Part shown: one piece after another, positions 41,541-47,974 of the stretch
Numbering within the stretch: the stretch's first letter is position 1
Layout: each line of letters starts with the position of its first letter
From: Actinotalea sp. Marseille-Q4924
GTDB lineage: Bacteria; Actinomycetota; Actinomycetes; Actinomycetales; Cellulomonadaceae
DNA: 64,000 bases
Reading direction: 5' to 3'
NCBI RefSeq assembly: GCF_916618755.1
Contig: NZ_CAKAKB010000002.1
Coordinates: 186,001-250,000 of the forward strand
Program-made: the position numbers and the translations under genes
Notes under the pieces: model-generated
Told to the model about the DNA's origin: nothing
What the model saw: only the letters and a program-made list of their open reading frames with translations
The model's database searches: none

Positions 41541-41561
41541 TCCGATGAAGGTTCGATGAAG
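41541..41561 (-). promoter_or_regulatory. Copper-island direct repeat, box 1 (before DUF305)
   Basis: On the minus strand: CTTCA, six bases TCGAAC, CTTCA, TCGGA. Half-sites are exactly 11 bp apart, the spacing of OmpR/PhoB-type regulator sites. It is 93-113 bases upstream of the DUF305 start and reads toward it. It is the best match to the consensus built from all five boxes. Confidence 0.65.
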
Positions 41562-41593
41562 ACCGGGGAGCGGTCGCTCCCCGGGAACCCCTG

Positions 41594-43015
41594 TCACCCC
41601 GCCGCGCCGACGCCCGCCGCCTCCGCCTCGACGACCGTGATCGCGCCCCAGTACATGCCCATCCCGCAGGAGTAGGCGTACGTCCCCGGCTCGTCCAGGA
41701 CCAGCTCGACGACGTTCACGCCGGGCCGGAGGACCTGCGGCTCGATGCCGAGGTCCGGCGCCCACAGCGACGCGGCGCAGCTGACGGCGACCGAGTCGAT
41801 CTCCCAGCGGATCGGCACCCCGGCGACGACGACCGCCTCGTACGGCTCGTACCCCGCGGCGACCTGCGTGGTGCGGACCGTCTGGAGGTCCTCGGTGAGG
41901 GTCACGTTCTCGGACACCGCGCCCGGGCCGGCGGCCGACGAGCCGGACCCCGCACCGCCCGACGCCGCCGTCGCCGGCGCGACGAGCCCGGGCGCCAGGA
42001 TGCCGAGGGCGCCGCTGACGTTGACGGCGGCGAACGCCAGCACGGCCACGCCGGCGAACCGGAAGAAGCGGGTCGCGGAGGCGCCGCGGGCCAGCGCGGC
42101 AAGCCCACCGACGCCGAGGAGGCCCGGCATCGTGCCGACCGCGAACAGCGTCATGATCGCCGACGCCTGGAGCGGGTCGCCGGTCGACAGCGCGTACACC
42201 TGCACCGCCTGCGTGAACCCGCACGGCAGCAGGAACGTCCCGGCCCCGAGCAGTGCGGCGCGGCGGTCGGAGTAGCTGCTGCCGGTGCTCTCCAGCCCCA
42301 GCCCCTGCGAGAGGCCGGTGGGCAGGGTCACCGCGGTGCTGCGGGACAGGCGCGGCGACAGGCCGGTGAGGCGGACGCCCAGGCCGACCATGACGACGGA
42401 CACGGCCACCATGAGGACGGCCACCATGTGCCCGCTCAGGCTGAGCGCCGAGCCGAGGGCGCCGGTGAGACCGCCCAGCACCGCGAACCCGGCGACGCGG
42501 CCGAGGTTGAACGCCACGTGCGGGCGCATCCGCTGCCGCGTGGACCCGCCCGGGTGCTGCTCGGCGTGCCGGGCGGAGACCGCCAGGACCAGGCCGCCGA
42601 CGAGCGCCATGCACGTCGAGAACCCGGCGGCCAGGCCGAGCACGACGACGAGCGCGAGGCTGCCCGAGGAGGCGAGGCCGCCCACGCGGTCGGCGAGACC
42701 GGTGAGCCCGCTGGCCTCGAGCGCGAGCCCGAGGACGACGAGGACGGCGACCGCGACCGCGAGGTCCCGCCAGACGGTCCGGTCGCGGCTGAACCAGGCG
42801 CTCGCGTCCTCCCCGACCTCGTAGCCCGCGGCACGGACGGCGCGGACCAGGGCGCTGCGCGGCACCCGGCCCGTGGTGCGGACGGTCGCGCGCCCGCGCC
42901 GGACGGAGACACGGGCGTCGCTGACGCCGTGGACCTTCGTCAGGGCCTTGGCGATGCGCCGCTCGCAGGCCGTGCACGTCATGCCCTGCACCGGCAGCTC
43001 GACGGTGGCGGGCAT
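41594..43015 (-). CDS. HMA - SafE/TauE membrane - cupredoxin fusion protein
   Basis: 473 residues. Residues ~1-70 are a heavy-metal-associated domain with GMTCTACERR. After a single helix comes a six-helix SafE/UreH-like core (VVLGLAAGFSTCMALVGGLVLAVSARH, FNLGRVAGFAVLGGLTGALG, FLLPCGFTQAVQVYAL), in which Cys and Met line the helices. The last ~90 residues resemble a cupredoxin (IRWEIDSVAVSCAASLWAPDLG, GTYAYSCGMGMYW), with Cys and Met as likely copper ligands at the outer face. The ATG overlaps the copA stop. It likely passes copper between the ATPase and the envelope; direction unproven. Confidence 0.88.
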   Translation of the reverse strand: MPATVELPVQGMTCTACERRIAKALTKVHGVSDARVSVRRGRATVRTTGRVPRSALVRAVRAAGYEVGEDASAWFSRDRTVWRDLAVAVAVLVVLGLALEASGLTGLADRVGGLASSGSLALVVVLGLAAGFSTCMALVGGLVLAVSARHAEQHPGGSTRQRMRPHVAFNLGRVAGFAVLGGLTGALGSALSLSGHMVAVLMVAVSVVMVGLGVRLTGLSPRLSRSTAVTLPTGLSQGLGLESTGSSYSDRRAALLGAGTFLLPCGFTQAVQVYALSTGDPLQASAIMTLFAVGTMPGLLGVGGLAALARGASATRFFRFAGVAVLAFAAVNVSGALGILAPGLVAPATAASGGAGSGSSAAGPGAVSENVTLTEDLQTVRTTQVAAGYEPYEAVVVAGVPIRWEIDSVAVSCAASLWAPDLGIEPQVLRPGVNVVELVLDEPGTYAYSCGMGMYWGAITVVEAEAAGVGAAG

Positions 43016-47858: not shown

Positions 47859-47879
47859 CTTCACCGAACCTTGATCGAG
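47859..47879 (+). promoter_or_regulatory. Copper-island direct repeat, box 4 (before the response regulator)
   Basis: CTTCA, CCGAAC, CTTGA, TCGAG with 11-bp period, in the divergent region between the response regulator and the thioredoxin-CcdA operon. Confidence 0.6.
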
Positions 47880-47953
47880 CCGGCGTGGGTCACTCGCCCG
47901 CGACGGGAGGTCGCTGCGGCCGTGACCGCCGCGCGAGGCGCCGGGTCGGGCAT

Positions 47954-47974
47954 CTTGACCGAACCTCCATCGAA
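47954..47974 (+). promoter_or_regulatory. Copper-island direct repeat, box 5 (before the thioredoxin-CcdA operon)
   Basis: CTTGA, CCGAAC, CTCCA, TCGAA with 11-bp period, 76 bases before the GTG of the thioredoxin-like gene and on the same strand. The weakest half-site match, but the CCGAAC spacer is identical to box 4. Confidence 0.5.

Follow-up and report, generated by a model that had tools for sequence, protein, structure and literature searches.

PhoB-type activation proceeds from head-to-tail half-sites that lie 11 bp apart, upstream of the promoter. Like the locus described here, the proteobacterial CusR/CopR system (TIGR01387) is a copper two-component system with an OmpR-family regulator, and the CusR site is a palindrome. 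The closest described system is CopRS of Corynebacterium glutamicum. There the site bound by CopR is TGAAGATTTgaTGAAGATTT, binding is lost when the repeat is mutated, and both of the divergent operons that flank the site are activated (PMC3140484). The cop region of plasmid pLEW279b is given as 97% similar to that of C. glutamicum (PMC3140484), and the loop of the C. glutamicum kinase CopS has the motif FHDHM (PMC3353115).

The window, which is the whole stretch of 64,000 nucleotides that was analysed, carries a copper island with the following genes, predicted CopR boxes (scored with a matrix trained on other genomes) and -10-like elements:

40840..41448, minus strand: gene for a DUF305/CopM-type protein (family search); predicted target
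41506..41511, minus strand: -10-like element GAGGGT, at +50 from box 1
41546..41561, minus strand: predicted CopR box 1, CTTCATCGAACCTTCA, 34.7 bits; 5' of the DUF305/CopM-type gene, 98 bp to its called start
41594..43018, minus strand: HMA - DsbD_2 - cupredoxin-like gene (Pfam; cupredoxin-like domain at 27.4 bits against a cut-off of 27); overlaps copA
43015..45405, minus strand: copA, copper-translocating P-type ATPase (family search); probable target
45486..45501, plus strand: predicted CopR box 2, CTTCAGCGAGTCTTCA, 31.2 bits; between the divergent copA and SHOCT-like genes, without a -10-like element at +49/+50
45576..45591, plus strand: predicted CopR box 3, CTTCAGCAGACCTTCA, 30.4 bits; 5' of the SHOCT-like gene
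45626..45631, plus strand: -10-like element CAGGGT, at +50 from box 3
45679..45933, plus strand: SHOCT-like gene, 84 aa; predicted target, boxes preceding similar genes in relatives
45896..47044, minus strand: copS, sensor kinase with HAMP/HisKA/HATPase domains and a short extracytoplasmic loop with FHEHM and a distal HAEEAF
47041..47796, minus strand: copR, OmpR-family response regulator (Pfam Response_reg PF00072 and Trans_reg_C PF00486); predicted binder
47859..47874, plus strand: predicted CopR box 4, CTTCACCGAACCTTGA, 32.2 bits; between copR and the glutaredoxin-CcdA-redoxin genes, without a -10-like element at +49/+50
47954..47969, plus strand: predicted CopR box 5, CTTGACCGAACCTCCA, 30.2 bits; 5' of the glutaredoxin-CcdA-redoxin genes
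48004..48009, plus strand: -10-like element CACGGT, at +50 from box 5
48050..49920, plus strand: glutaredoxin-like, CcdA-like and redoxin genes, predicted to form an operon and to be a target; start codon of the first gene inferred

The HMA - DsbD_2 - cupredoxin-like gene probably forms one operon with copA. A preliminary description of the island had named as neighbours of the boxes a DUF305 gene, a copper P-type ATPase gene, an OmpR-family regulator gene with its kinase and a redoxin series, and these assignments are correct, with two weak labels. The 84-aa SHOCT-like protein has no match in Pfam or NCBIfam and takes its name from that description and from a relative (L069) whose own SHOCT match lies below the cut-off, and the CcdA-like protein scores 24.7 bits against DsbD_TM, under the gathering score of 27.1. 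No multicopper oxidase was found among the nine window proteins that were scanned.

The five boxes also lie where the preliminary description had put them, with the 11-bp period that it gave in all five and the (C/T)CGAAC spacer common to three, and its placing of all of them between genes holds, as none of the five is inside a called gene. Boxes 1, 2 and 3 match CTTCA-N6-CTTCA exactly, box 4 has one mismatch, and box 5 has two, its half-sites being CTTGA and CTCCA. At up to one mismatch, the window contains four matches against a mean of 0.23 in shuffled sequence, and four were reached in none of 100 shuffles. The matrix scores the boxes at 30.2-34.7 bits, and the next best site in the 64 kb reaches 12.6. 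The five boxes are real and far beyond chance expectation.

Very probably the boxes are bound by an OmpR-family response regulator of the CopR type; the leading candidate is the product of 47041-47796, and its paralogues may take part too. Judged by their sequence, the boxes represent no new kind of regulon and correspond to the site already known for C. glutamicum CopR. The reverse strand of the C. glutamicum site, AAATCTTCATCAAATCTTCA, includes CTTCATCAAATCTTCA and shows the 11-bp CTTCA repeat of the boxes; CTTCATCGAATCTTCA occurs as one of the exact sites in the loci examined. The direct repeat TGAAGATTTnnTGAAGATTT of C. glutamicum shares with the window boxes the CTTCA core, the 11-bp period and the spacer, and differs in its outer AAA, which the window boxes lack. 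In both systems an OmpR-family regulator is paired with a copper kinase that has a short loop (FHDHM...HAE in C. glutamicum), and genes for a copper export ATPase and for copper-binding proteins are linked to this pair. In C. glutamicum, CopR governs the operon that encodes it as well as genes for a copper P-type ATPase and a thioredoxin-like protein (cg3289), and equivalent control is predicted here. The C. glutamicum CopS loop (PMC3353115) is found letter for letter in the kinase of pLEW279b, and the window CopS loop, of about 30 residues, keeps FHEHM (FHxHM) and the distal SHAEEAF. The pLEW279b regulator and kinase are 52% and 46% identical to those of the window, and pLEW279b has two exact boxes, one adjoining copR and the other about 5.6 kb away. 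Two other identities for the window regulator were rejected: it reaches 168.9 bits against a cut-off of 279.2 as a proteobacterial CusR/CopR (TIGR01387), and 235.4 bits against a cut-off of 300 as MtrA (NF040689).

Loci around homologues of the regulator were drawn from 60 genomes of the family, from named genomes (80 loci, the best among the matches listed) and from four plasmids (out of at least 60 plasmid matches), and were grouped by regulator identity (at least 55% versus below 50%), with one locus of 51% (L122) in neither group. Among spacings CTTCA-Nk-CTTCA in 53 loci of at least 55% identity, two of them from the genome of the window and contributing four matches, k=6 occurs 58 times and any other k from 0 to 25 at most six times; CTTCA-N6-CTTCA occurs three times in 58 loci below 50%. 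A matrix was refined on 54 loci, none from the genome of the window (the window and L092 were left out of training), of which L069, L071 and L093 are from a genome of the same genus. In the 57 distinct exact sites of these training loci, the spacer, which the pattern does not select, approximates TCGAA(C/T), with GAA common. Boxes are a conserved feature of the surroundings of CopR homologues in relatives: at 20 bits or more there are 148 sites in 48 of the 54 CopR loci (six have none) versus six sites in five of the 58 distant loci, a contrast that is partly circular because the matrix had been trained on these 54 loci; neither the spacing scan nor the scores of the window boxes share this circularity, and the reversed matrix gives one site. 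The fitted threshold of 13.75 bits also yields 94 matches in 35 of the 58 distant loci, and 20 bits was therefore taken for the contrast, which was computed at 14 to 24 bits. When the genome of the window is included, 17 of the 164 sites of at least 20 bits are within called genes and 147 are not deep inside one. The sites of relatives are partly kin by descent, and their flanks show no conservation outside a -10-like region.

The kinases follow the same division of loci. Among the 50 paired kinases of the 54 CopR loci, 15 carry FHxHM, 13 carry FHxHL, 21 have only F..H[MLFV], and one has none of these; among 51 kinases of distant loci, FHxHM and FHxHL are absent and F..H[MLFV] occurs three times. 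Two of these three distant loci (L123 and L124) also have sites of at least 20 bits, which suggests that the CopRS/box system may reach beyond the clade as drawn.

Across the 3.64-Mb genome, the exact pattern has ten matches, all at copper loci, and the reversed control pattern has none. Three are in the window island, six are in a second copper island (C3:1224-1243 kb), and one, at C1:257128, stands before a P-type ATPase gene that marks a third copper locus. A scan with the 19-mer CTTCANCGAAYCTTCATCG at up to three mismatches gives 14 matches (control 0), five in the window, six in the second island, one at the C1 locus and two elsewhere, so that 12 of the 14 are at the three copper loci. 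The 16-bp pattern at up to one mismatch is unselective genome-wide, with 42 matches versus 28 for the control. The regulon had been described as one of five sites, and those five stand, but at least seven further sites in the second island and at the third locus make it larger than that. In C. glutamicum, by comparison, one site serves two divergent operons, in which a multicopper oxidase is encoded.

A single copper regulon with the OmpR-family regulator encoded in its middle had also been proposed, and the genome scan and the relatives bear out the regulon; more than one regulator may be involved, since the genome has three CopRS-like pairs in all. The paralogues of CopR are encoded at C3:1240585-1241274, in the second copRS pair, which belongs to the second island (75% identical to window CopR), and at C3:1250058-1250780 (56%), each followed by a kinase gene. 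The boxes might accordingly be read mainly by another regulator, such as the second-island paralogue, with the local CopRS as a minor partner. We consider this unlikely: two more CopR-like regulators with kinases are at hand, and by eye no division into two types is apparent between the boxes of one island and those of the other, but the CopR-homologue loci of many genera have adjacent boxes of their own, which favours the local pair, and cross-binding by all three regulators would be compatible with both readings.

Recognition by the local CopR is the preferred reading, and the arrangement of the boxes relative to promoters bears on how it would act. In the promoter set of 139 sites, an NAnnnT element begins at +50 from the box start in 60 and at +49 in 40, where other offsets average 3.7 (51 and 36 of 125 after dereplication). 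One or the other offset is occupied at 99 of the 139 sites, and the element is no part of the matrix. T is rare at the first position of the element; the textbook -10 sequence TAnnnT has no peak at any offset and was rejected, as the relaxed NAnnnT alone peaks. Weak extra half-sites in phase with the strong pair (at least four of five letters) are found at +22 in 15 and at +33 in 23 of the 139 sites. The 11-bp head-to-tail half-sites are a feature shared with PhoB-type activation, as are the weak in-phase extras; compared with the classical pho box, the strong pair is shifted upstream by one repeat pair and the sequence differs. We take the layout to indicate weak promoters with a putative activator bound immediately 5' of their -35 region.

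In the window, the boxes at 41546, 45576 and 47954 have a -10-like element and those at 45486 and 47859 do not, as is the case for six of the 14 boxes of this genome in the promoter set. A -10 element on the opposite strand was considered for boxes that lack one on the same strand, and was rejected, since its peaks fall inside the box or at its edge. The targets of the boxes at 45486 and 47859, between divergent genes, are uncertain. In pLEW279b, NAnnnT is absent from positions +48 to +51 of the box beside copR, and the promoter rule is consequently unsupported as an explanation of the distant start site of cg3286 in C. glutamicum. A further reading holds that the boxes serve CopR as repressor sites, or that only some of them are functional. 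OmpR-family regulators can repress as well, and the two window boxes without a -10-like element would fit this reading. It is nevertheless improbable, given that the strong box precedes the -35 region at 99 of 139 sites, as activation predicts, and that C. glutamicum CopR is an activator of both divergent operons (PMC3140484).

Boxes and regulator were also counted across the genomes of the family, 17 of 61 of which (including that of the window) have a regulator match at E<=1e-60. With CopR defined at E<=1e-80, the 15 genomes with CopR contain 60 exact boxes (control 10) and the 46 without it contain 95 (control 48; rank test p=0.026), and 28 of the 50 exact boxes in the 14 other CopR genomes lie within the 0.44 Mb fetched around CopR. 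From these counts, the bare exact pattern is a modest predictor of CopR genome-wide and a box near CopR is a strong one. CTTCA is short, and exact 16-bp matches occur in genomes without CopR, but the idea that the boxes arose by chance, or form a repeated element with no regulatory role, has a negligible probability in view of the shuffle, spacing, reversed-matrix and genome-wide controls and of flanks that are unconserved save for the -10-like region.

Computation shows the boxes, the clustering of good matches at copper loci, their company with the regulator clade, the motif in the kinase loop and the distance to the -10-like element; from these we infer a chain of copper signal, phosphorylation, binding and activation. 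The short His/Met loop of CopS would sense excess copper outside the membrane, and CopS would then phosphorylate CopR. CopR would bind the two CTTCA half-sites, 11 bp apart and head-to-tail, in a box just upstream of the -35 region, and would bring RNA polymerase to a weak promoter, the -10-like core of which begins 49-50 bp past the box start. The DUF305 gene, the SHOCT-like gene and the glutaredoxin-CcdA-redoxin genes would be switched on in this way, as probably would copA and copRS, from the divergent regions.

The predicted targets were surveyed in 57 loci (the 54 loci and three stretches of the genome of the window) with 933 called genes, a gene being counted as box-adjacent if a box lies within 250 bp of its start. 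The gene calls are simple (GC-contrast open reading frames, BLAST to annotated plasmid genes and labels of our own), and the fractions are approximate. A box adjoins 143 of the 933 genes, among them SHOCT-like (6/7), Lgt (6/9), glutaredoxin-like (5/9) and multicopper oxidase (8/16) genes, as well as DUF305 (13/30), HMA (3/8), regulator (18/52), CcdA-like (3/14) and P-type ATPase (8/56) genes. The three box-adjacent CcdA-like genes were classed by BLAST, and one of them (L071) has no Pfam match. Unclassified genes are box-adjacent in 54 of 600 cases, and kinase (0/51), redoxin (0/9) and Lnt (0/3) genes in none. The glutaredoxin-CcdA-redoxin module and the Lgt enzymes of lipoprotein maturation are likely additions to the regulon; a CcdA-type thiol module and Lgt genes within the predicted regulon set the present system apart from C. 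glutamicum CopRS. A short protein without a Pfam match (L067:11498-11827 and homologues) has a box before its gene in seven of seven called cases.

The second island contains a gene for a CsoR-type repressor flanked by two P-type ATPase genes, another copA-like ATPase gene, a CcdA-like gene (with a sub-threshold DsbD_TM match), a redoxin gene, two DUF305 genes and a gene for a DUF326 protein. It also contains two Lgt-domain genes, an Lnt gene and a MacB/FtsX-type ABC system, the ATPase of which ends in a sub-threshold YHS match. The start of the Lnt gene is about 550 bp from the nearest box, with a small open reading frame between them, and its membership of the regulon is therefore uncertain. 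Both Lgt genes stand directly behind CopR boxes (C3:1210000-1249000; L031 and L032), and the copper island of the Cellulomonas plasmid p110066 (L065) likewise has Lgt and Lnt. An open reading frame at L032:10612-11079, in the place that the glutaredoxin gene has in the window, looks homologous to that gene by eye and has no Pfam match. The gene at L031:11331-14108, 319 bp behind a CopR box, encodes a P-type ATPase that begins with a cupredoxin-like domain and has a YHS domain at its C terminus.

In many Actinomycetota, the CopR box may define a large copper regulon of one promoter design (a strong pair, two weak half-sites and a -10 element at +49/+50) that includes Lgt, the glutaredoxin-CcdA-redoxin relay and possibly Lnt and the MacB/FtsX-type ABC system, a proposal for and against which we see equal chances. 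If it is true, the response to copper stress would go beyond the pumping of copper and remodel surface lipoproteins and thiol chemistry, and copper defence would be tied to the maturation of lipoproteins and to thiol chemistry in the envelope. For Lit2, the literature connects copper with the acylation of lipoproteins. A literature search of partial coverage found no paper that ties copper defence to thiol chemistry or lipoprotein maturation in actinobacteria, and none on copper two-component systems with DUF305 in Actinobacteria. What is added here is the extent of the regulon in this genome and in other actinobacteria, its consensus and its promoter layout: a regulator known for a single C. 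glutamicum site gains a matrix for predicting copper regulons in further genera of actinobacteria, and the layout predicts start sites.

At the edge of the second island, adjoining the third CopRS pair, lies an open reading frame that by eye encodes a tyrosine site-specific integrase (L092:12085-13710, near C3:1252500), and given this integrase it is possible that the island is a mobile one. Elsewhere on C3, three rRNA operons stand in direct tandem at C3:466898, 472637 and 478375 (L026-L028), spaced by 5739 and 5738 bases, and Rfam confirms 16S and the 5' part of 23S in each.
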